A stretch of 64,000 bases of DNA from Nonomuraea turcica (GTDB lineage: Bacteria > Actinomycetota > Actinomycetes > Streptosporangiales > Streptosporangiaceae), in NCBI RefSeq assembly GCF_030718205.1, contig NZ_JAUZQF010000043.1, forward strand, positions 1 to 64,000, written 5' to 3'. Both the position numbers and the translations under genes were made by a program. The notes under the pieces are model-generated. The model did no database searches, had not been told where the DNA came from, and saw nothing but the letters and a program-made list of their open reading frames with translations. Positions 17,351-31,934 of the stretch are shown one piece after another; the first letter of the stretch is position 1; each line of letters opens with the position of its first letter.

Positions 17351-17724
17351 GGCGCGTTCTCCTCCAGGGGGGCGCTGGCGGCGTGTCCCAGGTCGCCGAT
17401 CGCCTGGGAGAGTGGGTGGTTGGCGCGTAGATCGGCGTACCGGAAGGCGATGCGGCGTGCGGCTCGTTCGGGTTCGATGGCCGGGTGCCAGGCGTAGACG
17501 GCACGCTTGCGTTCGGGGTCCCAGCCGGTGCGCCACCAGAACCGGTCGCCGTCGCACCAGACCGCCAGCCCTACCCAGACCGACACCAGGGCGAGGTCGT
17601 ACCCCGTGTGGATGTCTGCTTGTATGCCGTACTCGGTCTGGAGGGTCTGGCGCAGGAGATCTGCGGACAGCATGGCTTGCGTTTTCTTGCCGTTCCTGGG
17701 CACGGCGATAATCTGGTCCTGCAT
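17347..17724 (-). CDS. Hypothetical protein upstream of the UTRA-linked pair
   Basis: A 125-residue protein with Trp/Tyr-rich core (VSVWVGLAVWCDGDRFWWRTG; VYAWHPAIEPERAARRIAFRY), probably a small soluble fold. ATG 17724 starts about 200 bp from the divergent regulator gene, and two TAGGGGGGCTAAAGT repeats lie between them. It ends in an ATGA overlap with the next gene. Related small proteins are common next to HTH regulators in Streptosporangiales, from memory; function unknown. Confidence 0.65.
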   Translation of the reverse strand: MQDQIIAVPRNGKKTQAMLSADLLRQTLQTEYGIQADIHTGYDLALVSVWVGLAVWCDGDRFWWRTGWDPERKRAVYAWHPAIEPERAARRIAFRYADLRANHPLSQAIGDLGHAASAPLEENAP

Positions 17725-17824
17725 CGTTGACGCCCCAAGCTCTCGATGCTTCGGACCCCCGTCTGCGGGTGGTGTTGCAGCACCGTTTGTCCCGTAGGTG
17801 GGGGTCTACTCAAGGCCCCGGGTT

Positions 17825-17839
17825 TAGGGGGGCTAAAGT
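17825..17839 (+). promoter_or_regulatory. Direct repeat 1, TAGGGGGGCTAAAGT
   Basis: A 15-bp sequence repeated exactly at 17871-17885, 46 bp downstream, in the divergent promoter between the hypothetical pair and the HTH-UTRA gene. Spacing and exact identity suggest regulator binding sites, probably for the adjacent regulator. Confidence 0.6.
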
Positions 17840-17870
17840 CGAGAGTAGAGCCCTGACCAGGCCCTCGCAA

Positions 17871-17885
17871 TAGGGGGGCTAAAGT
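17871..17885 (+). promoter_or_regulatory. Direct repeat 2, TAGGGGGGCTAAAGT
   Basis: Exact second copy of the 15-bp element, 37 bp upstream of the regulator's ATG. Together the copies cover the expected promoter of the regulator gene. Confidence 0.6.
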
Positions 17886-17921
17886 GCGCCGAATGTCGGT
17901 CCCTGAGGAGGCAACGCCCGG

Positions 17922-18728
17922 ATGGACTTGAAGACGCTGAGAGAAGTCGCGCAGGTCAGCGATCCCGTGGAACGAGCCCGCATGCTCAGCCGACTCATGA
18001 CCGAGGAACAAGGGTTGGTCACCGAGGCGGCCAAGATGCGGCGGCAGGCCATCGCGGAGGCGCGGGAGTCCGGGATGAGCCTGGAGGAAATCGCCGGGCG
18101 GCTGGGGGTCTCGCCTGGGCGCATCTCGCAGATGAGAAAGGGGCCCACGGCTCGCGCGCCGGAAGGCCCCGCCTCGCCGGCCCCTCGCGTGCTGGTGCAG
18201 CGGGCCTTGCCGACCGAGCCCGCCGTCAGGGGCTCCAAGTCCCTGTTCCTGGCGGAAGCGGAACGACAAGGGCTCAAAGCTGATCGCCGGATGCTCTACG
18301 TCGGTCTGGAACCCGCCAGCGATCACGTTGCGGCCTGCCTGCGCGTCGAGCCCAGTACGGACATCGTGGCCCGGCGCAAGATGATGACTGCGAACGACGT
18401 GCCCGTACGCATCGCGACGAGCTACTTCCGCGCCGACCTGTTCGGCGACACCAGGCTCGCCGAGCCGGAGTTCGTCAAGCCGTCGCTTCAGTCCGCGTTG
18501 ATCGCCCTTGGCTACTCGTTCGGTCACGCGGAGGAGAGCCTGACCGCTCGGCCGCCGACAGCCTTCGAGCGTGAGACGTTGGAACTCGAGCCCGGAGAGT
18601 GGATCGTCCAAGTGCTCCGGGCGAGCTATTCCACCGAGGACACGCCTATTCATGTCCTTGAGACGATCTGCGCCGCGAACCGGCATATCTTCTCCATCGG
18701 CCAGGTCTCCGGGTACGACGAATTCTGA
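17922..18728 (+). CDS. HTH regulator with C-terminal UTRA-like effector domain
   Basis: A 268-residue protein. Residues about 35-72 form a helix-turn-helix with a leading helix (AKMRRQAIAEARESGMSLEE then IAGRLGVSPGRISQMRKG), closer to sigma-region-4 or Xre-like HTH than to the GntR winged helix. Residues about 100-268 resemble a UTRA ligand-binding domain (VPVRIATSYFRADLF; TAFERETLELEPGEWIVQVLRASYS; DTPIHVLETICAANRHIF). UTRA is normally fused to GntR-type DNA-binding domains, so this pairing is less usual. GAGGAGG lies about 12 nt before ATG 17922. It probably binds the paired 15-bp repeats upstream; ligand unknown. Confidence 0.75.
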   Translation: MDLKTLREVAQVSDPVERARMLSRLMTEEQGLVTEAAKMRRQAIAEARESGMSLEEIAGRLGVSPGRISQMRKGPTARAPEGPASPAPRVLVQRALPTEPAVRGSKSLFLAEAERQGLKADRRMLYVGLEPASDHVAACLRVEPSTDIVARRKMMTANDVPVRIATSYFRADLFGDTRLAEPEFVKPSLQSALIALGYSFGHAEESLTARPPTAFERETLELEPGEWIVQVLRASYSTEDTPIHVLETICAANRHIFSIGQVSGYDEF

Positions 18729-19291
18729 GTGACGAACTGAGTGGCAATCGCGCCGGACGACCTTGGACCCTGAAGGACCGGCAAGGACTATAACCCCAGG
18801 TGGGGCGGGTTTCGGCCGTGATCCCATCCCCACGTGATGCGCGGGGGGTCAGTAGGTGGTGCACAACCACACCTTTGGAGACCGCAATGCGCGTGGCGTC
18901 CACAGCTAGGACATCGGCGTTATTGACTGTGTCGAGTCGTTGTCGCGGTGTGCGAGTCACGCTTAGGTTACATCGGCCCTGAGAGCATTGCCTTATCCCG
19001 GCAATCCTGTTACTGGGCGGGATTCATCCACTAGTTGCTGGTTTCGTAGCCCCGAGTGGAGAGATCACGACATCTGGACGAGATGCCTGCTGATGCTTGT
19101 CGTCGCACGAATGGTGGCACCCGTGATCGTGACCGCCACAGGATCGCACGATGGGAATCGCGATATGCGGGTCTTCGGCGACTTCCGCGGCGCGGCGCTG
19201 ATCCCCTACGGATCTCTGGTCGAGCCGGTCTTCTCGGTGTATAGAAGCATGTGCGGGATTCCTTCTCTGCGGCGGGAGGAAGGGCGAGGGT
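18729..19291. other. 563-bp gap upstream of the defence operon
   Basis: I find no gene with family features here. Open frames on both strands are short and lack ribosome sites. The base composition is lower in GC than the surroundings (many A/T-ended codons would result), matching the operon that follows and suggesting that imported DNA begins about here. The promoter of the TIR/macro operon must lie in the last part; a GGAGGAAGG ribosome site is at 19276-19284. Confidence 0.5.
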
Positions 19292-20821
19292 ATGCGATGT
19301 CTCGTTTGCGATGCTTCAACGACGGATATGGATATCTGTGCCGAATGTTCGCTAAACGGACATGGCTCGCTCGGCTTGGACGGCGTTCCTCCGCATGTGG
19401 TGGATGTTGAAAAAGCGGACAGTCAGGTGACAAGGCATCTGTGTTGCGCCGCGCAGTCAGATGAATGGTTCGCACAGAAGCTTACGTCCAACATTATTCG
19501 GCAGCCGCGCCGAGGGGTGGCGAAGTCGCCGGGAGTCGATATCGTGGCGGTGCTCCGGCACGCGTGTGCCGCACGGAGGCGCCGGGCGTTGCGCGACACC
19601 GTGCTCACGGTCGTCAACCTCCCGGCGATCTTGCTAGCACTCGGAGCGATTTTTGCTGCGGTCATCAGTTTCTCGCTCGCGCCCCTCCGGGTGCTCTTAC
19701 CGGTGCTGGGCGTGTCCATGGCGGTTTCGTCGGTTACCACCTTCTTCTTCAAGCTCTCCTACAATCATGCGATCACCGGTCCGCTGAGCCGTCGACACTT
19801 CTCTGCAGTCGAGGCGCCGGTGCCGCGCAATTCCCTGCTGAGAGCGCGCATAGCGGAGATCGACAAGCAGACGCACGGGAACATCACAATTTATCGAGGG
19901 TTCAAACCCTTTCGCGGATACGGGAAGGTCATCGGGGGCTGGTCCTTCGCAATAGACATCACGAAGCCGCGCGAGTACAGCGGGGAATGCTCCCGTTTCG
20001 AAGTCCACGAGATACGCGATCACGTGAAGCGTCAGGTGGAAGCTCTCGAGTGGCTGGGCCTCAGGGTCGAGGAGCGGATCTTCGTCAGCGGTCGCGACGT
20101 CTGGGACGGCCGGGTCTTCATCGGCCAGGACGGCAGGCCGCAAGCGACGATCGAGGGCCGGGAACTACGCAAATTACTGCTGGAGCCGGACAACCGGGCG
20201 CGGCCGTACACGGTAATCCGGCTGCTTGGGTGGGACGGCGAGCTCGCTCTGACGATCTTCCTGCGCTTCGTGATCGTCAAGCGCAATCTGTTCATCGAGG
20301 CAAGCCATTCGATCCTCACGCCGTTGCGCGACTCCTTCCGAGGACACGATCAAGTCAAACGGGTGGCGGGATGGTGGGGTCATCTCGGGTTGGGACTGCG
20401 TTCGATCAGGCTGTTCAGCAGGCCGATGTCGGCCTTTGCCCACTGGGCCGAACGGCGGGATGACAGGCGCGCGCTCATGGAATTGGCTGATCGTTTCGAA
20501 GACCCTCACTTCGACCACGGCGTCTTCTTCAGTGCCCGCGAATGGGCCAGTGACGAGCGCTATCAACGGTATTTCCAGAAGCTGGACAGCGAGATGTACA
20601 CGAAGGTCGTCGAACAGCGCATATTTGATGCGCTCGTGGAGTTCCTGGATAAGCACAACATCGATACAGGCGAACTCGTGCAGCGGCAGACCACGATTCT
20701 CAACAACGGTGTGATGGTGACCGGTAACGGTTCCATCAACGCGCAGAACGTCGCAGGCGGAACGGGGGCGCACGCCGGCCCTGGCGAGCAGAAAGGCGGA
20801 GGGAAGCAGAGTGGGACATAA
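19292..20821 (+). CDS. Two-TM protein with zinc-ribbon N-terminus and C-terminal amyloid-signal-like motif
   Basis: A 509-residue protein. N-terminal CxxC-x9-CxxC (C3, C6, C16, C19) could bind zinc. Two membrane helices lie at about 105-129 and 133-155. The block NITIYRGFKPFRGYG (197-211) with GGWSFAIDI marks a widespread uncharacterised actinobacterial domain. Residues 471-496 form a Gly/Asn-rich tail motif (NNGV, then NAQNVAGG and GAHAG) almost repeated at the N-terminus of the next protein. The stop overlaps the next start by 11 bp. ATG 19292 follows a strong ribosome site. As the membrane partner of a TIR and a macro protein it is a candidate effector or sensor in an anti-phage system; this is inference from context. 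Codon use is less GC-biased than its neighbours, suggesting transfer. Confidence 0.75.
   Translation: MRCLVCDASTTDMDICAECSLNGHGSLGLDGVPPHVVDVEKADSQVTRHLCCAAQSDEWFAQKLTSNIIRQPRRGVAKSPGVDIVAVLRHACAARRRRALRDTVLTVVNLPAILLALGAIFAAVISFSLAPLRVLLPVLGVSMAVSSVTTFFFKLSYNHAITGPLSRRHFSAVEAPVPRNSLLRARIAEIDKQTHGNITIYRGFKPFRGYGKVIGGWSFAIDITKPREYSGECSRFEVHEIRDHVKRQVEALEWLGLRVEERIFVSGRDVWDGRVFIGQDGRPQATIEGRELRKLLLEPDNRARPYTVIRLLGWDGELALTIFLRFVIVKRNLFIEASHSILTPLRDSFRGHDQVKRVAGWWGHLGLGLRSIRLFSRPMSAFAHWAERRDDRRALMELADRFEDPHFDHGVFFSAREWASDERYQRYFQKLDSEMYTKVVEQRIFDALVEFLDKHNIDTGELVQRQTTILNNGVMVTGNGSINAQNVAGGTGAHAGPGEQKGGGKQSGT
20702..20779 (+). other. Shared Gly/Asn-rich motif, copy at C-terminus of first defence protein
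   Basis: Encodes residues 471-496 of the 509-residue protein. Pattern: N-x-G-V-x-V-T-G-N-G-S-I, then NAQNVAGGTGAHAG. The DNA copies differ at synonymous positions from the next gene's motif, so selection acts on the peptide rather than this being a recent duplication. Confidence 0.7.
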
Positions 20822-21482
20822 TTACGGGGTTCACATCAGCGGCGGCGAGGTCAACGCGCAGAACATCGCGGGCGGTCCCGGCGCGCACGCGGGAAGCGGT
20901 GAACTTGGGGTGGCGGGCAGGTGGCGCGACGCCCAGAACCTCCAGGAGAAGGAAAGGAATGTCTTCGTCATCCACGGACGCGATGAGGAATTTAGAAAAC
21001 GCATTTTCGACCTCCTGCGCCGCATGGACCTGAACCCCCTGGAATGGGAGACGATGGTGCATGCCCTGGGCCATTCCAGTCCCTACCTCGGTGAGGTCCT
21101 GGACCAAGCGTTCACCATGATGCAAGCGGCCCTGGTCCTGATGACGCCGGATGACATGGTGCGGCTCCATCCCGACCTGGCGGAGGGCGAGCGGGATCGG
21201 GTGACGGAGTGCCAGCCACGCCCCAACGTGCTGTTCGAGGCAGGGATGGCATTCGCAAAGTGTCCGGAGCGCACCGTGATTCTTCATGCGGGGCACATGC
21301 GCGCCGTGTCGGACTTCGGCGGGCGCAACTACGTGACGTTCGACGGCTCCGTCCAGTGCGTCAACAAGCTTAAGCTGCGCCTGCAGACCGCAGGCTGTGC
21401 CGTACGAGAAACGGGTAGCGACTACCTAGATACTGAGCAGCTTCGCAACCTCGGCGCCTACCTTCGGCGCCCGCGCGGATGA
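20811..21482 (+). CDS. TIR-domain protein (CAP12/PCTIR-type), probable NADase/signal synthase
   Basis: A 223-residue protein. Residues 4-28 are the Gly/Asn-rich motif shared with the upstream protein (NYGVHISGGEVNAQN, then AGGPGAHAG). The TIR-like domain begins at 51 (VFVIHGRDEEF) and carries SSPYLGEVLDQAF, ALVLMTPDD, RPNVLFEAGMAFA with putative catalytic E143, and SDFGGRNYVTFDG. This branch of TIR domains, known from CBASS and related systems, cleaves NAD+ or converts it to signal molecules. GTG 20811 overlaps the upstream gene, and the stop overlaps the macro gene as ATGA, so all three are co-translated. With a TM-macro partner it would play the ThsB role of type II Thoeris, though its TIR subtype differs from what I recall of classical ThsB. 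Confidence 0.82.
   Translation: MGHNYGVHISGGEVNAQNIAGGPGAHAGSGELGVAGRWRDAQNLQEKERNVFVIHGRDEEFRKRIFDLLRRMDLNPLEWETMVHALGHSSPYLGEVLDQAFTMMQAALVLMTPDDMVRLHPDLAEGERDRVTECQPRPNVLFEAGMAFAKCPERTVILHAGHMRAVSDFGGRNYVTFDGSVQCVNKLKLRLQTAGCAVRETGSDYLDTEQLRNLGAYLRRPRG
20820..20894 (+). other. Shared Gly/Asn-rich motif, copy at N-terminus of TIR protein
   Basis: Encodes residues 4-28 of the TIR protein: N-Y-G-V-H-I-S-G-G-E-V, then NAQNIAGGPGAHAG. Adjacent genes with matching short Gly/Asn/Gln-rich motifs at facing termini is the known arrangement of bacterial amyloid signalling sequences (BASS). Confidence 0.7.
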
Positions 21483-22339
21483 ACGGTCTACGGCTTGTAG
21501 CCGGCACCTCGCGCGGCCGCTCGCTGGCAATCAGCCACATGCTCATCGCCTTTGGCCTGATCTCCGCAGTGGTGCAGTTCGCCGGTCAGGTGTTTGGGCT
21601 GAAGTTCAGCCAGCCCGGGCTGATCACGGGGGTGTCCCTGGGGTTCTGCGTTGTGTGGGGGTTCGCCCGCGCCTACCCGCGGAGGAGGATCGAACGCCAG
21701 TTCACGCACCCCGACCTGACCGTGATCATCAAGATTGGTGACCTGCTGGAAGAGAGGGCCGATTTGGTCGTGGGTTTCAGCGACACATTCGACACCGATG
21801 TCGGGGACAATGCGATCATCAACCGCTCAAGCCTGCAGGGTCAGCTACTGACCCGCATATACGGAGGCGACCGGTCACGGCTGGATGGGGAGCTGAGCAA
21901 GGCGCTGGCCTCTGTCACTCCGGCGAGTATGGAGACCAGGGCGACCAAGCCGAAAGGGAAGCTGAAGCGCTACCCCATCGGCACGGTAGCGCTGATCGGT
22001 CCGCCGGATCAGCGGATCTACTGCGTGGCCTACAGCCGAATGGGCAACGAGCTCACCGCGCACTCGTCGATGAACGACCTCTGGGTAAGCCTGGATCGGC
22101 TCTGGGAGGCGATTGCCGCCAGTGGGCAGCTGGGCAAAGTGGCGATCCCGATCATGGGAGCCGAGCTTGCCCGGATCTACGCACTCGACCGTGAGAATCT
22201 GCTCAAGGTGATCATCTTGTCGTTCATGGCGCGGTCGCGTGTGCAGGCCGTGTCCAGAGAGCTCATGGTCGTTATCCGGCCCCAGGAGGTCGACAAGGTC
22301 GACCTCCTGGAGATGCGGGCCTTCTTGGCCGCCCTCTGA
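21479..22339 (+). CDS. Membrane-anchored macro-domain protein (ThsA-like, type II Thoeris)
   Basis: A 286-residue protein with two N-terminal membrane helices (about 18-38 and 46-66) and a ThsA-type macro domain (formerly DUF6430) from about 77: VVGFSDTFDTD, IINRSSLQGQLLTR, KRYPIGTVALIG, then VAYSRMGNELTAHSSM with WVSLDRLWEAI, and KVAIPIMGAELARI. In type II Thoeris such a TM-macro protein senses an ADP-ribose-derived signal made by the TIR protein and then damages the membrane. The ATGA overlap with the TIR gene supports a shared system. A 29-bp perfect hairpin lies within its last codons (22282-22310). Biochemical ligand is not known for this branch. Confidence 0.8.
   Translation: MNGLRLVAGTSRGRSLAISHMLIAFGLISAVVQFAGQVFGLKFSQPGLITGVSLGFCVVWGFARAYPRRRIERQFTHPDLTVIIKIGDLLEERADLVVGFSDTFDTDVGDNAIINRSSLQGQLLTRIYGGDRSRLDGELSKALASVTPASMETRATKPKGKLKRYPIGTVALIGPPDQRIYCVAYSRMGNELTAHSSMNDLWVSLDRLWEAIAASGQLGKVAIPIMGAELARIYALDRENLLKVIILSFMARSRVQAVSRELMVVIRPQEVDKVDLLEMRAFLAAL
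22282..22310. terminator. Perfect 13-bp hairpin inside the 3' end of the macro gene
   Basis: CCAGGAGGTCGAC and GTCGACCTCCTGG pair perfectly around a 3-nt loop. It lies 30 bp before the stop codon, with no U-tract after it, so it is not a standard terminator; it could protect the 3' end of the mRNA or cap the operon, or be chance within a codon run. Confidence 0.3.
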
Positions 22340-22460
22340 AGAGCTGCGGGCCGTGATCCCGGCGTCCTCCAGCACCTTGGCCAGTCGCTGGCCCTCGCTT
22401 ATGCGGTGCTCGATCAGATCCACGCGGCCGATCGCGTGGGCCAGCGTGCGCGTCGAGGCT
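22340..22460 (-). pseudogene. Possible IS110-family transposase scrap
   Basis: The minus strand reads TLAHAIGRVDLIEHRISEG then QRLAKVLEDAGI, reminiscent of the central linker of IS110-family transposases, directly abutting the defence operon's 3' end. Only about 40 residues survive and no catalytic residue is present. Confidence 0.3.
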
Positions 22461-22929
22461 ATGGACTGCGGCTAGGTGGACCTGGTCGCGAATGCTGCCG
22501 CACGCCTGCCAGCGGCCGACGCGGGTTGGGATGCAGCCAGTCGGGCGACAGGTTCGGGCTCGGCCGGATGTCTCGCCCGTCGAATCGTGAGGTCCGGCTG
22601 GGTTGTATCGCTGCAGGAGATCTTGTGATGCCCTCGGGGTCGCATGGGTCTACGGACCCCGCTGTGTGCCCAAGGGCCGGAATGACGCTTCCCCTGCCGC
22701 CGCCCTCGATCTCGTCGATGATCGATACCGGATACCCTGCCGGGCGTGCGGCGAGTAATGACTCGCCGGACGGCGTGGCTCGCGCTCGCGGCGGTGGCGG
22801 GGGTGTTGATGATGAGGCGTTCCCGGCGTCTCGCAGCCACGCGAGAGCGCCCGGCGCAGCATCAGGCCGAGCCGACGCCCACCGTCTCCGCTGACGCTCC
22901 TGTTCCCGAACAGCCTGCCGCCGTACAGT
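22461..22929. other. Gene-free part of the IS graveyard
   Basis: No gene I can support. A short plus-strand frame (22746-22952) with a hydrophobic start has no ribosome site and overlaps a transposase remnant. Confidence 0.4.
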
Positions 22930-23154
22930 TCCTTGCGGAGCCGGGCGATTAGCTCGACGGTGCCGGCGTCCAGCGCGGCCGGGTGAGGTGCACGGGCGAC
23001 GCGATCGCGGCTCGAACGCCGCGTCGCCCTCGGTCCCATAGCGGGCGATGAGCTTGGGCACCCAGCCTTCGGACACCCCGTAGGAGCCGGCGACCTCCGC
23101 GTACGGGCGGCTTTCGACGTCAACGGCGGTGATGATGAGTCTGGCTTTGGACAC
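22930..23154 (-). pseudogene. IS481-type transposase N-terminal remnant, frameshifted
   Basis: Starting at GTG 23154, the frame reads KARLIITAVDVESRPYAEVA then YGVSEGWVPKLIARYGTEG and AFEPRSRRP, the HTH of IS481-family (integrase-core) transposases. The homology then shifts frame (LDAGTVELIARLRKEL) and ends near 22930. The DDE catalytic core is missing. Confidence 0.65.
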
Positions 23155-23363
23155 ACCGGCCAGACTCGTGATCGCGAAGGATTCCTCTCTCCGGAGACAC
23201 TCTCAACAGGGCGGCTGCTGGTCTGCGTGGAGATCTTCTCGGAAAGATCCGGGTGACGTCCTCGGCCTTGAGCGCACCGAGCTGGGTGTGCCACCGCGGC
23301 GGCGGGGAAAGCCAGTAAACCGAGGCAGAGCACCGCACGGGCCGCGCCGGTCACGGCGCGAAA
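23155..23363. other. Gap between transposase remnant and small membrane ORF
   Basis: About 210 bp in which I see no gene or clear signal. Confidence 0.4.
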
Positions 23364-23543
23364 TCAGGGGCTCTTCTGCCCCCGGTCGAACGCCCCTGTG
23401 TGGTTCATGATTGATGTAACGAGGGTGGCTGTTGCGATGAAGGTGCCTCCGCTCCATACAAGAGCTCCAGCCATCAGTACGCCGTTCTCCCGCGCGACGA
23501 TGAGTGCGATGAGCGCGATCACCAGCGAAAGCAGTGAACACAT
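23364..23543 (-). CDS. Small two-TM protein whose start codon lies in an IS terminal repeat
   Basis: A 59-residue, very hydrophobic protein: one helix at about 2-21 (SLLSLVIALIALIVARENG) and one at about 24-46 (MAGALVWSGGTFIATATLV), then a polar tail ending DRGQKSP. The ATG (23543) is one base past the transposase stop and inside the element's inverted repeat, so the original 5' end was replaced or displaced by the insertion and expression may now depend on the IS. I do not recognise the family; small proteins of this shape occur in other actinomycetes. Confidence 0.5.
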   Translation of the reverse strand: MCSLLSLVIALIALIVARENGVLMAGALVWSGGTFIATATLVTSIMNHTGAFDRGQKSP

Positions 23544-23544
23544 T

Positions 23545-24315
23545 TCATCCCTGTGCGACCTCGTAGTTCTGCAGGACAGCGATGGCCTTGCACAGGTGTC
23601 CGGCCTTGAGCGGGCAACAACGAAGCTTGCGGAGAATCCTCCAACTCTTGAGCTGGGCATTCGCGCGTTCGCCGGGGCCACGCAGCCGGGCATGTGACCG
23701 GTTGGCTTGCTTTTGCGACTCGGGCTTGTTCTTGCCCTTGTATGGGGTGATGAGCGGTCCTTCGGCTCCCTGATAGCCCTTGTCGGCGAGGGTGAGGATG
23801 CCGACCTCCTCCAGCTCGCGCAGGATGCCCCAGATCCGGGCCGCGCTCAGGTCGTGCGTCTTGCCGGGCAGCGACCCCGACGTCCAGATGATGGTCCCGT
23901 CCGGGGAGGCGATGACCTGGATGTTCATCCCGTGCACGCGATGCTTGCCGGAGTAGTACGGCCGGTCGGCTTTGACGCGGTCGGTGGGGATGAGCATGCC
24001 ATCCAGCACCAGGTAATGCAGCCCGTCCTTCTTGGCCTTGCGTAAGGCCTGGCCGAGCTTGGGCGAGCGGGCCGACAGCAGCTTGACCGTCTCCCGCACA
24101 TAGCGCCACGCGGTCGCAGTCGACACCCCGAAACCGGCGGCCAGTTCGGCGAAGGTCTCGCCCTTGCGCAGGTAGACCAGGACCAGCAGGGCTTGCTGTC
24201 CGGCATTGAGTCGCCGCCAGGGGGATCGGATCGTCTTGCGGTACCGGCGCAGCACCCCGGCGAGGTAGTTCAGCGTTGCACGCGACAAATCGACGGCGGC
24301 GCGGTAGAACAGCAC
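23545..24315 (-). CDS. IS5-family DDE transposase
   Basis: A 256-residue single-frame transposase with an N-terminal HTH (ALLVLVYLRKGETFAELAAG and FGVSTATAWRYVRE, a Tnp_4-type HTH) and a DDE_Tnp_4-like core: LVLDGMLIPTDR (first Asp), HDLSAARIWGIL, LADKGYQGAEG (second Asp), and a C-terminal GERANAQLKSWRIL (Glu). No frameshift is seen. The stop codon lies in the left terminal repeat. A large hairpin sits just upstream and may restrict translation from outside transcription, as in other IS elements (inference). Confidence 0.88.
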   Translation of the reverse strand: MLFYRAAVDLSRATLNYLAGVLRRYRKTIRSPWRRLNAGQQALLVLVYLRKGETFAELAAGFGVSTATAWRYVRETVKLLSARSPKLGQALRKAKKDGLHYLVLDGMLIPTDRVKADRPYYSGKHRVHGMNIQVIASPDGTIIWTSGSLPGKTHDLSAARIWGILRELEEVGILTLADKGYQGAEGPLITPYKGKNKPESQKQANRSHARLRGPGERANAQLKSWRILRKLRCCPLKAGHLCKAIAVLQNYEVAQG

Positions 24316-24318
24316 CTG

Positions 24319-24374
24319 AAGCTCCTGGTGATGACGGCGAAGATTGTGGTGATCAACCCCTCTACCAGGAGCTT
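24319..24374. repeat. Inverted repeat upstream of the IS5-type transposase
   Basis: Twelve-base arms GAAGCTCCTGGT (24319-24330) and ACCAGGAGCTTC (24363-24374) are perfectly complementary around a 32-nt loop, positioned just before the transposase start. It could sequester the ribosome site in read-through transcripts. Confidence 0.6.
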
Positions 24375-24460
24375 CTTCACGTCATCGGCCGAACACCAGC
24401 ATCGCGATCATGCTGTGACCAGCGGTCCCGCCGTATGGGCATGAAATGGGTTCAGTATGT

Positions 24461-24960
24461 CGATAGCCAAGCAGAGCGCGATGCGCGTGGTGATGCTCAT
24501 TTCTTCTCATTTCGGTGAGATGGATCGTAATTGGAGGAATCGTTCGGATGTCCATCAATCCCGAGTTCTGGGTGCTCGGCGTTCGTAGCAGTTGAGAGCC
24601 GTAACGGTAGGGATGGACGGGGATCTGGTTGAAACTAAGTCGACAAGTATCGGCTGCCTGTCCGCGGCGACGTGAGGTGGCGGCCGGACGCTGCGATGGG
24701 GGCGCGAAGGTCGACGGGGTCGAAGGCTTGGACCGAATGATCTGTGTGAAGCTCTGGTGACGCCGGGGCCACGTGGGGTTCCAAGCGCGATAAAGATCAT
24801 CACGGGGTCTAGATCATGGACTGCCCCTTTCATCTGCTGGTCTACCGAATGGCGGGCCGGGGTCGAGGGAAGGCGGGTTGTCACTTCGGCGACTCTCGTC
24901 CGTCGTCGCCCCTGATTATGACGGTTTGTGGGCTGTGACGCTTGTGCAAATGCATGTGCA
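24461..24960. other. 500-bp gap downstream of the IS5-type element
   Basis: No gene I can support. A 15-codon frame beginning ATG 24549 with a GGAGG site at 24533-24537 exists but is too short to judge. GC is below the local average. Confidence 0.4.
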
Positions 24961-25038
24961 GATATAAATCTTCTCCTGGAGGATGAGAATCCTCTCCCCT
25001 GGTCCGCATCTGAGAGCTTCTCGTGGAAGATTTATGTC
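24961..25038. repeat. AT-rich imperfect inverted repeat
   Basis: Arms GATATAAATCTTC (24961-24973) and GAAGATTTATGTC (25026-25038) match at 12 of 13 positions around a 52-bp centre that holds a further short hairpin. Unusually AT-rich for this genome. It may be a MITE-like relic or a regulatory hairpin. Confidence 0.5.
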
Positions 25039-25224
25039 TTTTCATCCCTTTTGTGCTGCTTGTCGTAATGAATGACCACGGAAGGTATCTGCACGTGCAA
25101 GAGCGGAGATGGACGAGAGTGGCTCCGGCGCTGTACGGGAAGAACTGGCAAGGGTGTGCGATGCCCGATGTCCTCTTTGCCGCAAACGCCAGCTCGCCAG
25201 CGCCGGGGATCCAAGGCGGTCAAG

Positions 25225-25375
25225 GAGGGTGTTCCAGCAGGTCGCCTGGCCCGCGGCAGCTTGAGTCGGCGCCGGGTGCGTGGCTGAACCGCTGGTGGGT
25301 GATGGCGATTGACGGGTTCGTCGTGGACCTGCCCGACACCGAAACCAACGTCGGTCGATGTGGAGCTTGTTGAGC
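25225..25375 (+). pseudogene. IS4-type transposase remnant, frameshifted
   Basis: Two plus-strand frames join as VFQQVAWPAA then APGAWLNRWWVMAIDGF and VVDLPDTETNV. The MAIDGFVVDLPDTxxN block with the first catalytic Asp is typical of IS4-type transposases. Everything else of the roughly 400-residue protein is missing. Confidence 0.6.
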
Positions 25376-25700
25376 ATGGTGAGATGCCGTAGGCCCGTCA
25401 GCGAGGTGATTGTACTCAGCTGGAGTTCGGTCCTGCCCTCGTGTCGGAACGCCGGGGCGAGCAGGTGCTCGGCGAATCCGTCCGGGTCGCGGGCCGCCCT
25501 CCACAGCTGAAAGAGCAGCTTGGAGGCGTACTTATCCTTGCTGGTGAAGCGGGCGGCCAGTTTCAGGGCGTCCCCGCCGTCGTCCGGTGTGGACAGCAGC
25601 ACGAGTTCCCGGATGGCCTCGCGCGCCTCGACCGGCTTGACGGTCTCCAGAAGCGCTCTTAACTGATCGAGCCGGGCTGAGGTGTCGTCGCCTCCGCTCC
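25355..25700 (-). pseudogene. Hypothetical protein fragment
   Basis: A minus-strand frame with protein-like composition: RALLETVKPVEAREAIREL, LLSTPDDGGDALKLAARFT, KYASKLLFQLWRAARDPDG, TSLTGLRHLTMLNKLHI. It has no start codon, runs into unrelated sequence at the IS4 remnant, and so is probably a truncated gene. A GTG at 25602 could start a shorter product. I do not recognise the family. Confidence 0.35.
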
Positions 25701-25951
25701 TGTCGTTGGTGTGCGTACCGGGGCGAGGTCGGCTGCGTCCTGGGAGAGACTGTGGGGCTGGCTGGAGGCGTCGAATCGATTCGACTGGACCTTAAGCGCC
25801 CCCTGGTGCGATGGTCAAGAGCGAGAAACGTGCGTGACACGTCGCCGCCATGTCGCCGTCAGGCGAGCCGTAATCCTGGAAGCAGGCGTGCACGTGCGCG
25901 AGTGCCGCCGCCCTCAGCTTGAGCGACCTGCGGATCTACGAGCCCCTGTGG
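25701..25951. other. Gap before the LacI gene
   Basis: I see no gene or clear signal in this 250-bp interval. Confidence 0.4.
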
Positions 25952-26968
25952 TCAGGCGCGTGGCCGGGCGGGCCCGGTTGTGCCGCGGAGCGAGATCGGC
26001 GGGGCGACCAGGAGGTGCCGGTGCGGGATGGCCGGGTCGGCGATCCGCTGGATGAGTAGCTCGACGGCCCGGGCGCCCATATCGTCGGCCGGGACGTCGG
26101 CGGCGGTGAGCGGCGGATGCAGGCTCTCGGCCCAGTGCTGGGCGGCCACGCCCGCGACGGAGAAGTCCCCGGGCACGGTCAAGCCCGCTTCGTCCAGTGC
26201 GCGGTACATGCCGGACACCGCCGCCTCGTTGATGGTGGCGATGGCGGTCAGGTCCGGTTGCTGAGCAAGGAGTTGCTGGAGGCACGACTGTCCGGATGGG
26301 GGGTCATCGCCGCAGCAGACCCGCACGCCGTGCAGGCCGCGTTCGGCGATGGCGCGGTCGAAGCCGGCCTGCGCGCGGTGGCCCGGGCCGTATCCGGCGG
26401 CGACCAGCTCGGCGTTGCGGTTGACCAGCGCCAGATGCCGATGGCCGAGGTCGGCGAGGTGGTGGACGCACTTGGCGATGAGCGTCTCGTAGTCGATGTC
26501 CACCCAGGACATGTCCTCGGGGTGGCGGGTGCGGCCGATGCCGACGAACGGCAGGCCGCTCTCGAGCAGCCGGGCGACCCGGTCGTCCTCCAGGCGGATC
26601 TCCATGAGGACGACGCCGTCCACGCGCCGTCCGGTGACGACGCGCTCGAAGGAGCGGTCGTGCTCGCCGCCCGAGGGTGAGAGCAGGACGTCCAGGTCGG
26701 CGCGGGCGGCGGCGTCGACCACGCTGGCCACGAAGCCGAGCTGCATGTCGGTCAGGCGCCGGCCGGCCGGCGGTATGACCAGGCCGATCGTGCGGGTGCG
26801 GCCCTCCTTCAGCGCCCTGGCGGACGCGTTGGGCCGGTAGCCCAGCTCGTCGATGACGGTCAGGATGCGGCGTTTGGTCTCCTCCGAGACCGGGCGCTTG
26901 CCGGTGAGCGCGTACGAGACGGTGCTGCGCGACACGCCCGCCCGCTTGGCGATCTCTCCGATGTTCAC
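25952..26968 (-). CDS. LacI-family repressor of the adjacent ABC/glycosidase operon
   Basis: A 338-residue regulator. The HTH is at residues 2-23 (NIGEIAKRAGVSRSTVSYAL, then TGKRPVSEETKRRIL), followed by the periplasmic-binding-like domain (RTIGLVIPPAGRRL; GRRVDGVVLMEI; DDMGARAVELLIQRI). GTG 26968 follows GAGGAG at 8 nt. Related palindromes occur in the divergent promoter (27012-27150) and upstream of the secreted glycosidase (33883, 33961), so it probably represses all three transcription units until a sugar binds. The ligand is likely an oligosaccharide released by the secreted enzyme (inference). Confidence 0.9.
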   Translation of the reverse strand: MNIGEIAKRAGVSRSTVSYALTGKRPVSEETKRRILTVIDELGYRPNASARALKEGRTRTIGLVIPPAGRRLTDMQLGFVASVVDAAARADLDVLLSPSGGEHDRSFERVVTGRRVDGVVLMEIRLEDDRVARLLESGLPFVGIGRTRHPEDMSWVDIDYETLIAKCVHHLADLGHRHLALVNRNAELVAAGYGPGHRAQAGFDRAIAERGLHGVRVCCGDDPPSGQSCLQQLLAQQPDLTAIATINEAAVSGMYRALDEAGLTVPGDFSVAGVAAQHWAESLHPPLTAADVPADDMGARAVELLIQRIADPAIPHRHLLVAPPISLRGTTGPARPRA

Positions 26969-27011
26969 CCGTGCTCCTCGTCCGAATCCGCCGGTCGGCG
27001 ACCATCGTAGG

Positions 27012-27025
27012 TCGAACCGGTTCAT
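27012..27025. promoter_or_regulatory. LacI operator near the repressor gene
   Basis: TCGAACCGGTTCAT contains the palindrome GAACCGGTTC, 46 bp from the repressor start, suggesting autoregulation. It matches the CGAACCGATTCG family at the downstream sites with the centre CG versus AT changed. Confidence 0.6.
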
Positions 27026-27123
27026 GCGAGGTACCCACCCCGGTGCCGCGGCGAAGACGTATCGATTGCCGCAAGGCTTCCGCCCGCCCATTGACGCGCA
27101 GGACGGAGCGGGCCTATCTTCGG

Positions 27124-27150
27124 TCGAACCGATTCGGCGAACCGATTCGA
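27124..27150. promoter_or_regulatory. Tandem LacI operators before the ABC operon
   Basis: CGAACCGATTCG occurs twice, at 27125-27136 and 27138-27149, with one base between, about 50 bp upstream of the solute-binding gene. Head-to-tail sites would favour cooperative repression. Confidence 0.72.
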
Positions 27151-27198
27151 CTTCGAATGGAAACAGCCGCGTAACGCCTGTCTGCGGAGGTCAGATCA

Positions 27199-28476
27199 AT
27201 GAGATCAGCGGCAAGGAGCCGGCGTACCGCCGGTGTGAGCCTGGCGGTCCTGGCCGCCATGGGCGGGCTCGCCGCCTGCGGCTCGTCATCGTCCGGCGGC
27301 GACGGCGGCTCGACGAGCGCGAGCCAGGCCGCCGGGGGCGGCGCCTACACGATCTGGGACCCCTACCCCCAGTACGACAAGAGCTCGGAGTGGGTGAAGC
27401 TCCTCGAGACGTGCGGCACCCAGGCCGGGGTGAAGGTCGAGCGGACCGGCTACGACACCAGCGACCTGACCAACAAGGCGCTGCTGGCCGCCCAGCAGGG
27501 CAACTCGCCGGACGTGCTCATCGTGGACAACCCCGTGGTCTCGACGCTGGCCGAGGGCGGGGTCCTGACCACCACGGAGGAGAACAAGCTCGACGTCTCC
27601 GCGATCGAGCCGAACCTGCTGGCCGCCGGGCAGATCGGCGGCAAGACCTACGGCGTTCCCATCGGCGCCAACACCCTGGCCCTCTACTACAACAAGGACG
27701 TCCTGAAGAAGGCCGGCGTGGACGTCGCCTCCGTCAAGGACTGGGCGTCGCTGACCGCGGCGCTGGAGAAGGTGAAGGCGTCCGGCAAGAAGGGCATCAC
27801 GTTCTCGGCGATCGGCACCGAGGAGGGCAGCTTCCAGTTCCTGCCCTGGTTCTGGGGCTCCGGCGCGAACCTCACCAAGCTCGACTCCCCCGAGGGCGTC
27901 TCCGCGGTGGCGCTGTGGACGGACTGGCTGAAGAAGGGGTACGCCCCCAACTCCGTCATCAACAACACCCAGACCACGAGCTGGCAGGAGTTCGCCGCCG
28001 GCGACTACGCCTTCGCCGAGAACGGCACCTGGCAGCTCGCCAACGCCAAGAAGGCCGGCTTCGACTACGGCATCATCCCCATCCCGGGCAAGGACGGCGG
28101 CACCGCCCCCGCTCCGACCGGCGGCGAGTTCGTCAGCATCCCGGTGCAGTCCGACACCGCCCGCTACGCCACCTCCCAGAAGCTCGTGACCTGCCTGACC
28201 AGCACCGACAACTCGCTCACCACGACGACCACCCTCTCCTACATCGCGCCCACCGAAGCGGTGCAGGCCAAGCAGGTGGCGGCGAACCCCGATCTGACGG
28301 TGTGGGTCGAGGCGGTCAAGGCGGCCAAGGGCCGCACCAGCGACGACTTGGGGACGAAATACCCGAAGATCTCCGAACCGATGTGGGGCGCGGTGCAGGC
28401 GGCGCTGAGCGGCTCGAAGTCGCCGCAGGACGCCATGGCGGCGGCCCAGTCCGCGGCGGCGAGCGCGACCCAGTAG
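27199..28476 (+). CDS. ABC sugar-binding lipoprotein (CUT1 type)
   Basis: A 425-residue extracellular solute-binding lipoprotein with signal peptide and lipobox (GGLAACGSS, lipid cysteine about residue 27). The family-1 fold shows YTIWDPYPQYDKSSEW, LLAAQQGNSPDVLIVDNP, TYGVPIGANTLALYYNKDVL and FAENGTWQLANAKKAGF. CUT1 binding proteins bind oligosaccharides and deliver them to the MalF/MalG-type permeases that follow. ATG 27199 follows GCGGAGG. Expression is probably controlled by the two tandem operators upstream. Confidence 0.9.
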   Translation: MRSAARSRRTAGVSLAVLAAMGGLAACGSSSSGGDGGSTSASQAAGGGAYTIWDPYPQYDKSSEWVKLLETCGTQAGVKVERTGYDTSDLTNKALLAAQQGNSPDVLIVDNPVVSTLAEGGVLTTTEENKLDVSAIEPNLLAAGQIGGKTYGVPIGANTLALYYNKDVLKKAGVDVASVKDWASLTAALEKVKASGKKGITFSAIGTEEGSFQFLPWFWGSGANLTKLDSPEGVSAVALWTDWLKKGYAPNSVINNTQTTSWQEFAAGDYAFAENGTWQLANAKKAGFDYGIIPIPGKDGGTAPAPTGGEFVSIPVQSDTARYATSQKLVTCLTSTDNSLTTTTTLSYIAPTEAVQAKQVAANPDLTVWVEAVKAAKGRTSDDLGTKYPKISEPMWGAVQAALSGSKSPQDAMAAAQSAAASATQ

Positions 28477-28480
28477 CGGC

Positions 28481-29443
28481 ATGAACCACGTCACGCAGAC
28501 GGCGGTGCGTCCCGCCCGCGGCTCCGCCCCGGCACGGGGGCGGGGCCATCGGGCGGCGCGCACCAGATCCGGGCAGTGGGCGGCGTGGGCGTTCCTCGCC
28601 CCGGTCGTCGCCTACCTGCTCGTGTTCTACGCCTATCCGCTCTATCGCAACGTCGAGCTGAGCCTGCGCAACTACACGGTGCGCTCGTTCGTGCAGGGCG
28701 ACGCGCCGTTCGCCGGGGTCGACAACTACGCCAAGGTCTTCGGCGACGCCACGTTCGGGCCCGCGCTGTGGCACACGGTGGTGTTCACGCTGGTGTCGCT
28801 GGTCTTTCAGTTCGGCATCGGGCTCGCGCTGGCGTTGTTCTTCGTCAAGCACTTCCGGCTGTCGGCCACGTTGCGGGCGCTGTTCCTGGTGCCCTGGCTA
28901 CTGCCGCTCATCGTGTCGGCCTCGACCTGGTCGTGGATGCTCAACAGCGACTCCGGCGTGGTCAACGCGGCGCTGAGCTGGTTCGGGATCGGCCCGGTGA
29001 ACTGGCTGACCTCGCCGGACTGGTCGCTGTGGTCGGTGATCATCGCCAACATTTGGATCGGCATCCCGTTCAACCTGGTGGTGCTCTACTCCGGATTGCA
29101 GGCGATCCCCGCGGTCGTGTACGAGGCCGCCGCGCTGGACGGGGCGAGCGCCTGGCAGCGCTTCTGGAAGGTCACTTTCCCGCTGCTGCGCCCGGTGTCG
29201 GCGATCACCATCCTGCTCGGTCTGGTCTACACGCTGAAGGTGTTCGACATCATCTGGATCATGACCAAGGGCGGGCCGAGCGGGTCGTCGACCACGTTCG
29301 CCACCTGGTCCTACCGGCTCGGCTTCGGCAACCTGGTGCCCTCCTTCGGGCCCGGCGCGGCCGTGGGCAACCTGCTGATCGTGATGGCGCTGGTCTTCGG
29401 GCTGATCTACATCCGCGTGCAGCGAAGGCAGGCACTGGTATGA
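28481..29443 (+). CDS. ABC sugar permease, MalF type
   Basis: A 320-residue inner-membrane permease with about six helices; the first follows an Arg-rich N-terminus. The cytoplasmic EAA loop that docks the ATPase reads YEAAALDGASAWQRFWKVTF. It starts 4 bp after the binding-protein stop and its own stop overlaps the next ATG. No ATPase gene is in the operon; actinomycete CUT1 systems commonly use a shared MsiK-type ATPase encoded elsewhere. Confidence 0.9.
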   Translation: MNHVTQTAVRPARGSAPARGRGHRAARTRSGQWAAWAFLAPVVAYLLVFYAYPLYRNVELSLRNYTVRSFVQGDAPFAGVDNYAKVFGDATFGPALWHTVVFTLVSLVFQFGIGLALALFFVKHFRLSATLRALFLVPWLLPLIVSASTWSWMLNSDSGVVNAALSWFGIGPVNWLTSPDWSLWSVIIANIWIGIPFNLVVLYSGLQAIPAVVYEAAALDGASAWQRFWKVTFPLLRPVSAITILLGLVYTLKVFDIIWIMTKGGPSGSSTTFATWSYRLGFGNLVPSFGPGAAVGNLLIVMALVFGLIYIRVQRRQALV

Positions 29444-30246
29444 GGCACTGGAAGACCGCGGTCGGCCTGGTGCTGACCGGCGTGATGCTGTTCCCGGTCT
29501 ACTGGATGATCAACGTGTCCTTCACCCGGGACACCGACATGCGCAAAAGCCCGCCGAACTGGTTCCCGATCGACGGCACCCTGGAGGGCTACCGGGCGGT
29601 GCTGGACCAGCAGCTTCCCTACCTGGGTGTGAGCCTGGTGGTCGGGCTGGGCACGGTGGCGCTGACGCTGCTGCTCGCGACGCCGGCCGCGTACTCGCTG
29701 GCCAAGCTGCGCCCGCGAGGTGGCGGAGTGCTGAGTTTCGTGCTGCTGATCGCGCAGATGATCCCCGGGATCATCATGGCGATGGGCTTCTACGCCATCT
29801 TCCTCAGCGCCGGCGTGCTCAACACCGTTCCCGGGCTCATCGTGGCCGACTCCACCCTCGCCGTGCCGTTCGCGGTGCTGATCCTCACCACGTTCATGTC
29901 CGGCATCCCCGAGGAGCTGCTGCAGGCCGCCCGCACCGACGGCGCCGGCGTGGTGCGCACGTTCTGGTCGATCGTGCTGCCGGTCAGCCGCAACTCGCTC
30001 ATCACGGTGTCGCTGTTCGCGTTCCTGTGGGCGTGGTCGGACTTCATCTTCGCCAGCACCCTCGACCAGGGCGGCGACCACCAGCCGATCACCCTCGGCA
30101 TCTACCACTACATCGGCAACAACAACCAGGAGTGGAACGCCATCATGGCCACCGCCGTGATCGCCTCCATCCCGGCGACCATCCTGCTCGTCGTCGCCCA
30201 GCGCTACGTCGCCGCCGGCGTCACCGCGGGCGCTGTCAAAGATTGA
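29440..30246 (+). CDS. ABC sugar permease, MalG type
   Basis: A 268-residue permease with six predicted helices and the EAA motif LLQAARTDGAGVVRTFWSIV. The ATG overlaps the MalF-type stop (ATGA). The C-terminal end is typical for MalG-type partners. It pairs with the preceding permease to form the translocation channel. Confidence 0.9.
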   Translation: MRHWKTAVGLVLTGVMLFPVYWMINVSFTRDTDMRKSPPNWFPIDGTLEGYRAVLDQQLPYLGVSLVVGLGTVALTLLLATPAAYSLAKLRPRGGGVLSFVLLIAQMIPGIIMAMGFYAIFLSAGVLNTVPGLIVADSTLAVPFAVLILTTFMSGIPEELLQAARTDGAGVVRTFWSIVLPVSRNSLITVSLFAFLWAWSDFIFASTLDQGGDHQPITLGIYHYIGNNNQEWNAIMATAVIASIPATILLVVAQRYVAAGVTAGAVKD

Positions 30247-30263
30247 GAAGGGACCCTCACTTC

Positions 30264-31934
30264 ATGACCGTCGCCGCCTCCGGCCCGGTGTTCTCCCTAC
30301 GGGAAATCCCGTTCAGCTACCACGGTTCGTGGTTCGGCTTCTCGCCCGTGGTGGCGGAGAAGACCTACGCCGAGGACGTGCACCTGGTCTCTCACCAGAC
30401 CGGCATGCACCCCATCCTGCGGCTGATCCCCGACGCCGAGGCCGCGATCACGGCCACCCCGCACCAGCTCACCTGGAACGACGGCGAGGGCCGGATCGAC
30501 CTGGCCTACGAGAGCGCCGACACGGTACGCGTGCGCGGCCGCGGTCTCGGGCTCCGGCTGGTGGCCGCCGACCCGGTCCTGACTCCGTTCAGCGGCCCGT
30601 ACTTCTACCAGGACCCCGTCGACGGATCGTCCGTCTTCACCGTCTACCAGACCGGCCGCCGCTACCGGATCACCCTCCTCAGCGGGCAGGCCGAGCAGCT
30701 CGGCGCGCAGGCGCTGCGCACCGCCGAACGCGGCGTCGTCCTGAGCGGCGAGTGGGAGATCGCCATCGAGGAGTACGAAACCGCCCGCGCCCCCTACGCG
30801 AGCACGGACCCCTTCGAGCAGGTGGTCAAGGCCGCGCGGGCCGAGTTCGACGCGTTTGCCGCGGCCGTCGCGCCCTGGCGCAGCGACCGCACACCCGCCG
30901 CCGAACTGGCCGCCTACGTGCTGTGGTCGGCCACCGTGCGCCCGGCCGGGTTCGTCACCCGGCCCGCCGTGCTCATGTCCAAGCACTGGATGGACAAGGT
31001 GTGGAGCTGGGACCACTGCTTCAACGCCATCGCCGTCGCCGACGGCCTGCCCGATTTGGCATGGGACCAGTACCGCCTCCCCTTCGACCACCAGGACGCC
31101 GCCGGCGCGCTGCCCGACTCCGTCACCCACTCCGAGGTCCTCTACAACTTCGTCAAACCGCCCATCCACGGCTGGGCCCTGCGCCACCTTCCGCCGCCGC
31201 CCGAGCCGGTGGACACGTACCGGCTGCTGGAACGCTGGACCACCTTCTGGCTGACGGCCCGTCGCGCACCCGGCCACCAACTGCCGCACTACCAGCACGG
31301 CAACGACAGCGGCTGGGACAACGCCACCACCTTCGACCCCGAGCGCGTCGTCGAGACCGCCGACCTGGCCGCCTTCCTCGTCCTCCAGATGCGCGAGCTC
31401 GCCCGCCTGGCCACCGACCCGGGCGCGGCCGCCCGATGGACGGAACAGGCCGACCGGATGCGCGACGCCTTGCTCGCCGAACTGTGGGACGGCGAACGGT
31501 TCGTCGCCCGCAGCGCCCATTCGACACGGACCTGGCCCAGCTCCAGCCTGCTCGACCTCATGCCGATCGTGCTCGGCGACGAACTGCCCGAACCCGTCCG
31601 CGCCGCCCTGGCCGCCGGGATCGAGAAGCACCTGACCGCATTCGGACCCGCCACCGAGCTGCCTGCCTCCGAGCACTACCAGGACGACGGCTACTGGCGA
31701 GGCCCGATCTGGGCGCCCTCGACCGTCCTCATCGAGGACGGCCTGCGCCGCGCCGGATACACCGACCTCGCCGATGAGATCAGCGCTCGCTTCCGCACGC
31801 TGTGCGAGAAGTCCGGCTTCGCCGAGAACTTCGACGCCCTCACCGGCGAGGGGCTACGCGACCGGGCCTACACCTGGACGGCCAGCGCCTACCTCATCCT
31901 CGCCGCCGCCCACGAGCGACGAAGCAGCACCTGA
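30264..31934 (+). CDS. GH63-like cytoplasmic alpha-glycosidase
   Basis: A 556-residue enzyme without signal peptide: an N-terminal beta domain (about 1-200), then an (alpha/alpha)6 barrel with MSKHWMDKVWSWDHCFNAIA, HYQHGNDSGWDNATTFD and YWRGPIWAPSTVLIEDGLRR. These blocks match the GH63/GH37-like group that includes bacterial mannosylglycerate/glucosylglycerate hydrolases and alpha-glucosidases. The Asp in SGWDN and a C-terminal Glu are the expected general acid/base pair. It is last in the ABC operon (ATG 30264, 17 bp after the permease), so it probably hydrolyses the imported sugar. Exact linkage is not known. Confidence 0.8.
   Translation: MTVAASGPVFSLREIPFSYHGSWFGFSPVVAEKTYAEDVHLVSHQTGMHPILRLIPDAEAAITATPHQLTWNDGEGRIDLAYESADTVRVRGRGLGLRLVAADPVLTPFSGPYFYQDPVDGSSVFTVYQTGRRYRITLLSGQAEQLGAQALRTAERGVVLSGEWEIAIEEYETARAPYASTDPFEQVVKAARAEFDAFAAAVAPWRSDRTPAAELAAYVLWSATVRPAGFVTRPAVLMSKHWMDKVWSWDHCFNAIAVADGLPDLAWDQYRLPFDHQDAAGALPDSVTHSEVLYNFVKPPIHGWALRHLPPPPEPVDTYRLLERWTTFWLTARRAPGHQLPHYQHGNDSGWDNATTFDPERVVETADLAAFLVLQMRELARLATDPGAAARWTEQADRMRDALLAELWDGERFVARSAHSTRTWPSSSLLDLMPIVLGDELPEPVRAALAAGIEKHLTAFGPATELPASEHYQDDGYWRGPIWAPSTVLIEDGLRRAGYTDLADEISARFRTLCEKSGFAENFDALTGEGLRDRAYTWTASAYLILAAAHERRSST

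Follow-up and report, generated by a model that had tools for sequence, protein, structure and literature searches.

The DNA analyzed in the current work (hereafter "the window", 64,000 nucleotides) corresponds to positions 1 to 64,000 of the forward strand of contig NZ_JAUZQF010000043.1 (assembly GCF_030718205.1) of the actinomycete Nonomuraea turcica, and the element of interest is a three-gene operon encoding a membrane protein (named "g1"), a protein with a TIR domain, and a protein combining a transmembrane (TM) part with a macro domain (named "TM-macro"). These genes, and a short motif shared by the C-terminus of g1 (its "tail") and the N-terminus of the TIR protein (its "head"), are located as follows (ORF, open reading frame; aa, amino acids):

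19292..20821, plus strand: g1, an ORF of 509 aa, candidate membrane adaptor/sensor.
20811..21482, plus strand: TIR gene, an ORF of 223 aa with a GTG start, CAP12/PCTIR-type.
21479..22339, plus strand: TM-macro gene, an ORF of 286 aa, ThsA-type effector.
20696..20785, plus strand: g1 C-terminal motif LNNGVMVTGNGSINAQNVAGGTGAHAGP, residues ~469-498 of g1.
20811..20909, plus strand: motif MGHNYGVHISGGEVNAQNIAGGPGAHAGSGE at the TIR N-terminus, the counterpart of the g1 tail.

The original prediction had read this locus as a single system resembling type II Thoeris with an extra membrane protein, and the gene content on which it drew was recovered throughout. The three plus-strand ORFs overlap as described there, g1 and the TIR gene by 11 nucleotides (nt) and the TIR and macro genes by an ATGA. 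The third protein, for which a TM part and a ThsA-type macro domain had been claimed, matches PF20016 (2.8e-60), the PADLOC ThsA model PDLC00415 (9.3e-82) and the ThsA macro structure 8v6q of the PDB (1.3e-15), and its N-terminus is hydrophobic, the TM part taking the form of one single stretch (residues 14-41) above the hydropathy threshold. The assignment of the second protein to the CAP12/PCTIR-type TIRs with an intact glutamate E143 likewise stands, since it matches PF10137 at 3.1e-28 and all 14 TIRs aligned share this glutamate (RPNVLFEAG; FEAG). Besides PF10137, neither STING nor any further Pfam domain was found in this protein, whose best PADLOC model is PDC-S35 (1.4e-19). In a structural comparison, matches at E ≤ 0.001 were limited to two chains of the TIR-STING fibre 7un8, with a template-modelling score (TM-score) of ~0.44; comparison of its sequence with PDB sequences gave no usable match, and a profile comparison ranked Cap12 7un8 (E 0.021) and PycTIR (0.34) below an unrelated protein.

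The first protein, predicted beforehand to be a two-TM protein with a zinc-ribbon, starts with a CxxC...CxxC arrangement whose cysteines 3, 6, 16 and 19 are invariant in three orthologues, and its hydropathy peaks at 107-125 and 134-152 are consistent with two TM helices, the structural model displaying two long helices. In this AlphaFold2 model (overall predicted local distance difference test, pLDDT, 86.7; predicted TM-score, pTM, 0.84), the two probable TM helices (~107-152) are followed by an alpha+beta region (~180-345), a helical region (~347-472) and a disordered C-terminal tail, residues 475-509 having a pLDDT below 50. Searches of Pfam, NCBIfam and PADLOC gave no match to the window g1 at E ≤ 1. 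The top PDB rows for its fold are START-like, with TM-scores <0.3 and a root-mean-square deviation of ~20 or more, from which nothing was concluded.

The feature that ties g1 to its neighbour was absent from the original prediction: the last ~30 residues of g1 reappear at the start of the TIR protein, the g1 terminal sequence being NNGVMVTGNGSINAQNVAGGTGAHAGPGE... and the TIR protein starting with MGHNYGVHISGGEVNAQNIAGGPGAHAGSGE. At the nucleotide level this is the strongest direct repeat in the 17-25.5 kb interval (43 nt, 84%), linking the 3' end of g1 to the 5' end of the TIR gene, and identical residues of tail and head are specified by different codons at 13/20 sites. When the genome of origin was searched with a motif profile at E ≤ 0.1, matches were confined to the g1 tail and TIR head sites. 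In the AlphaFold2 model of the TIR protein (overall pLDDT 79.1), residues ~1-30 have a pLDDT of ~50 and lack secondary structure, and are followed by the ordered TIR fold.

The g1 family extends widely, profile A3 matching 67 of the 394 genomes of a class sample (that of the window included), and it allows the tail/head relationship to be evaluated across many loci. A total of 82 g1 loci were sampled (that of the window, 40 others, L093 and a further 40 picked from the better matches). Two were excluded, one with almost no tail (L060) and one with a differing frame and no usable tail (L168), leaving 80 loci, and removal of L028, which lacks a downstream partner, left 79 for a positional test in which the partner was defined as the ORF with the best coding score among those starting between -60 and +130 of the g1 stop. 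Own tail/head pairs scored 72.1 on average as compared to 31.5 for mismatched pairs, the maximum of 20,000 permutations being 38.1. The own head ranked first among 79 for 37 tails, in the top 3 for 66 and in the top 5 for 69, and among divergent g1 bodies (n=36) it ranked first for 27. A score ≥50 was reached by 69/79 own pairs, by 0.1% of shuffled own heads and by 7.1% of all mismatched pairs. In the 13 genomes from which two or three pairs were fetched, 26 out of 27 tails scored top with their own head, the partner ORF of the lone exception (L166) being judged wrongly called. Matching of tail and head is thus specific across the g1 family, and this pairing rule is well supported. A comparison of heads within partner classes, in most rows of which other heads of the class come out ahead of the own tail, is confounded in that the 60-residue heads take in the start of the effector domain, and was not used.

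When the 69 pairs scoring ≥50 were pooled, tail/head identical residues differed in codon at 36% of sites, where 44% would be expected if codons were independent. Because the observed difference approaches that expected for independent choice, the matching appears to be held mostly at the protein level, and the motif as a fresh duplication was rejected on the grounds of this test and of the codon differences in the window. Some pairs, such as L183 (4/29 codon differences) and L177 (3/24), look recently copied or converted; in L183 the head of the partner, a PNP protein, hardly differs from the g1 tail even in DNA (79% of nt over 39 codons), which is likely to reflect a recent conversion between g1 and the PNP gene.

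The proteins paired with g1 are diverse. A Pfam census of 75 partners, from which L025, L054, L166 and L190 were left out as their positional ORF was judged wrong by eye, returned at E ≤ 0.001 DUF5955 (22, at least one match falling under Pfam's own cut-off), PNP_UDP_1 (7), CAP12 TIR (4), EAD1 (4) and Metal_resist (1), while approximately half of the 75 matched no Pfam family at this threshold. Three of these partner families (TIR, PNP_UDP_1 and EAD1) are domains of conflict systems. In L028 a PNP partner carrying a similar motif is located upstream of g1, and four partners (L040, L171, L174 and L189) contain, according to a shuffle test, two tandem motif copies ahead of a helical part. Compared to g1 bodies, tails are enriched in Gly (18 vs 8%), Asn (11 vs 1.5%) and Ser (10 vs 5%), Ala not being enriched, and charged residues represent 8% of tails, 23% of g1 bodies and 13% of partner heads. 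Downstream of the PNP partner of L048 (8111-8752) and L052, a third gene encodes a protein of 213 aa with, by eye, a hydrophobic start, that of L048 matching no Pfam family above cut-off.

As regards g1 itself, 40 scanned relatives contain FHA (5/40) and zinc-ribbon domains (2-3/40), and no domain of the NLR type (nucleotide-binding oligomerization domain-like receptors) was found among 40 family members, the only families at E ≤ 0.001 being FHA, Yop-YscD_cpl and zinc-ribbon families; structure alignment A4 covers 40 of the 82 g1 proteins. A separate protein of ~225-511 aa with an N-terminal CxxC...CxxC is often present near g1 (L041, L043-L046, L051, L053, L054, L059 and L060), which suggests that the ribbon module can also have a gene of its own.

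Recurrence of the triplet was assessed among relatives. A g1 search of 148 relatives gave a match in 47 genomes (own included), and the co-conservation of the three genes, on which the reading as a single system also depended, was found in three further genomes. Two belong to the genus of the window (G015 and G052) and carry g1, TIR and macro genes in the same order; the third (G273), of another genus, carries g1, a TIR with the head motif and a macro gene, with a partial second macro copy beyond an intervening ORF. The triplet is therefore present in four genomes and two genera, and the four g1-linked TIRs score 64-100 against their own g1 tail. Given that the triplet recurs and that the tail/head rule spans the family, g1 as a chance neighbour was rejected. 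A phylum search with a profile of the triplet-type g1 matched 6/396 genomes at E ≤ 1e-20 (own included).

Macro genes also occur in the absence of g1. PF20016 was found in 31/297 genomes of a family sample, with the triplet in 4 of these 31, and 30 stretches around PF20016 matches were taken from 28 macro-positive genomes; two of them (L096 and L109) derive from PF20016 matches for which tblastn placed the macro gene in no called ORF. In the called genes of the stretches from the other 27 macro-positive genomes, no match to g1 was found (tblastn, 1e-4). Eleven of the 30 stretches encode, without g1, a long protein whose TIR resembles that of the window (tblastn, 155-176 bits), which rules out this TIR as a subtype peculiar to the window locus. 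The proteins concerned (L092, L101, L103, L106-L112 and L114) are 496-810 aa long as called (some starts being doubtful), carry the TIR at their C-terminus and are encoded near ThsA-macro genes, several of whose products have a long N-terminal extension that is winged-helix/SARP-like by eye; these loci possibly represent a separate macro/TIR variant. A classical ThsB-like gene, recognized by its N-terminal string, is present in 4/30 stretches. None of the 11 TIR proteins from g1-less macro loci scored for the motif above the maximum of its 30 shuffles (L111 equalling it), and the four classical ThsB-like proteins from such loci scored just 22-27. In addition, five TM-macro genes are present in genomes of the same genus (L116-L120); neither g1 nor a TIR like that of the window was detected in the stretches fetched there.

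Taken together, the earlier reading as a single Thoeris II-like system holds with respect to the macro profiles and the recurrence of the triplet, and is strengthened by the motif common to the g1 tail and TIR head. It does not hold in treating g1 as a mere extra membrane protein, because the large g1 family mostly pairs with other proteins. Nor is the association of such a TIR with a neighbouring ThsA-macro gene confined to the window locus, as the 11 stretches mentioned above show.

The operon is probably a Thoeris II-like abortive-infection module in which the TIR protein is switched on by the g1 adaptor through a private homotypic motif. In the mechanism proposed here, some trigger would make g1 cluster at the membrane, upon which its ~30-residue Gly/Asn/Ser-rich tail would nucleate an assembly, most likely of cross-beta (amyloid-like) nature, to which the TIR protein would be drawn by its matching N-terminal motif. 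The TIR domains thus crowded would begin to process NAD+, and the TM-macro protein would bind the resulting ADP-ribose (ADPR)-type signal, oligomerize and disrupt the membrane. According to PMC11204291, NADase activity depends critically on TIR self-association, and ThsA macro domains oligomerize when ADPR or an adenine dinucleotide is bound. Considering this role of self-association, and the likeness of the TIR protein to the TIR-STING fibre 7un8, a tail-nucleating adaptor would be a natural switch. Activation by clustering, the ADPR-type signal, macro oligomerization and membrane damage are all modelled on such known systems, and the operon would be expected to act against phage. The cross-beta reading draws on an analogy with the bacterial amyloid signalling motifs described in PMC7889193 and PMC8086366; tail/head assembly may accordingly be amyloid in nature, and the choice of amyloid over another beta-type homotypic contact is conjectural.

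A number of observations weigh against this interpretation. The g1 model had no significant match among PDB structures (best E 0.03), and since its fold is thus unmatched, a sensor role for g1 is a guess. No ThsB profile matched the window TIR at E ≤ 1 among 9 PADLOC models. Mismatched pairs scored ≥50 in 5.1% of cases even between dissimilar g1 bodies, and the own head outscored that of the locus with the closest g1 body in just 51/79 loci, so that the tail/head covariation partly reflects co-inheritance. When all ORFs within 4 kb were searched at the 80 loci, the adjacent downstream gene supplied the best match to the tail, through its N-terminus, in only 57, and 46 of those 57 downstream genes beat all 12 foreign tails tried; part of this shortfall arises from the discarding of ORFs overlapping g1 by more than half, through which some partners were missed. 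Ten of the 79 positional partners scored <50, and while five of these look by eye like calling errors (L025, L054, L166 and L190 in wrong frames, L170 with a start too far upstream), the other five (L027, L156, L175, L182 and L185) are real-looking yet weakly matched partners. Finally, in seven loci of the same genus (L029-L035) a g1 relative and a small partner are located, by eye, between rpsL/rpsG/fusA- and rpoC-like genes, the g1 relative of L033 having an FHA domain and the partner of L030 a DUF5955; because the chromosomal place is conserved, this points to a core rather than a mobile role of that branch, and to a family that is not solely one of mobile defence.

The explanation that best survives beside the proposed assembly is that the shared motif serves a specific non-amyloid docking, for instance by beta-strand exchange or as a small co-folded beta-helix, which would hold the TIR protein on g1 and either activate it or restrain it until g1 senses an infection. 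The pairing and specificity data are compatible with any homotypic or pairwise contact, and a g1-bound, inhibited TIR would agree with them equally. Tail and head are, however, alike and not complementary, as homotypic assembly predicts, four partners carry tandem copies of the motif, and its layout and composition resemble those of the amyloid signalling motifs described in PMC7889193 and PMC8086366, and docking of this kind is accordingly considered rather unlikely.

A second explanation concerns the function of the operon, which might not be anti-phage but a developmental or stress-induced cell-death/signalling module of multicellular actinomycetes. The seven pairs at one conserved chromosomal place would suit such a module, as would the enrichment of conflict systems of this type in multicellular bacteria reported in PMC7159879. 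Macro/TIR modules are nevertheless typical defence parts, and the surroundings of the window operon also point the other way. The features concerned are:

23545-24315: DDE transposase, near the operon.
18852..25766, no strand assigned: strain-variable-looking segment, from comparison with the conspecific genome G365.

Insertion sequence debris had previously been noted at the flanks, and the lower GC content that had been claimed was found, the operon having a GC fraction of 0.620 against 0.694 for the remaining window. The conspecific genome, in a comparison that scored 40 out of 929 first-look candidates, matches the window at 25767-31000 (98%) and at 17468-18851 (95%), yet these matches are ~65 kb apart. 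Among the matches listed, the operon has no counterpart in that genome, and the interval 18852-25766 is represented only by pieces of the transposase region (~23.5-24.4 kb), located elsewhere. Considering this lack of a listed operon match and the nearby transposase, the locus would fit a strain-variable one, though there is no clean empty site. A developmental role is thus doubtful, and slightly more so than docking. The weakest explanation sees a common type II Thoeris pair with an unrelated membrane gene as its neighbour, the repeat being a recent functionless local duplication. It can appeal to the 84% identity over 43 nt and to the g1-less macro genes that accompany TIR/ThsB-like genes elsewhere in this bacterial family, and is highly improbable in view of the triplet in three further genomes, the tail/head rule holding also for unrelated partners and the 13 codon differences among 20 identical motif residues.

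Both halves of the proposed module (a homotypically activated, Thoeris II-like one) have precedents, namely TM-macro Thoeris and coupling by homotypic motifs. As in type II Thoeris, a ThsA-type TM-macro protein is encoded beside a TIR protein with a catalytic Glu; the window TIR differs in being CAP12/PCTIR-type and in matching no PADLOC ThsB profile, an active-site tyrosine being described as a feature of macro-specific ThsB subfamilies (PMC11204291), and the operon differs in its third gene and in a motif common to g1 and TIR, which the four classical ThsB-like proteins lack. BASS (bacterial amyloid signalling sequence) systems are described as joining NLR receptors to Bell, TIR or CHAT effectors (PMC7889193, PMC8086366, PMC12261475). 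Their short motif at the termini of adjacent or overlapping genes, the presence of TIR among their effectors and the doubling of the motif in BASS/HET-s systems (on the effector side in BASS4), as these are described in PMC7889193 and PMC8086366, have counterparts here, the doubling in four g1 partners, and g1 pairs show the trait by which BASS are recognized, a short motif on which neighbouring receptor and effector genes match. In contrast, g1 is a two-TM receptor with no match to an NLR (STAND NTPase) domain, and it carries the motif at its C-terminus and its partner at the N-terminus, which inverts the arrangement published for NLR/Bell pairs.

Coupling through effector-associated domains (EADs) and in the two-gene membrane systems of EACC1, as described in PMC7159879, similarly provides a homotypic link between a core or membrane protein and swappable effectors in multicellular bacteria, and EAD1 occurs in four of the 75 g1 partners. 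The EADs described there are small folded domains, whereas the coupler of g1 is a motif of ~30 residues, and EACC1 is described there with a single TM helix as opposed to two in g1; a Pfam scan found no EAD in the window g1 or TIR. Cap12/TIR-STING and PycTIR share the TIR family PF10137 with the window protein, whose nearest structures are TIR-STING fibres, but no STING domain was found in the window protein. Membership of CBASS or Pycsar was rejected, PF10137 being the sole Pfam domain of the TIR protein and no cyclase or CD-NTase being found among the six neighbouring window ORFs scanned. In a literature search on Thoeris, bacterial amyloid signalling/BASS, antiphage amyloid and DUF5955, no title among those listed concerned the g1 family, and Dyrka 2020 may mention related motifs.

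The review PMC7889193 asks whether NLR-independent bacterial signalling amyloids exist. With middling confidence, we propose that g1 is the founder of a large signalosome class of Actinomycetes that is anchored in the membrane and independent of NLRs. Each receptor would bear a private amyloid-like tag, best matched by the effector of the neighbouring gene, and a single genome would thereby operate several insulated channels (TIR to TM-macro, PNP phosphorylase, EAD1, DUF5955), Thoeris being one plugged-in arm. The g1 family provides a concrete test set for that question, as it comprises dozens of receptor/partner pairs whose matching tags are diverse and whose outputs differ. The scheme moreover proposes a way by which a Thoeris-type TIR may be switched on, infection sensing by ThsB being left as speculation in PMC11204291, and if the tags are orthogonal, they would constitute natural insulated signalling channels.

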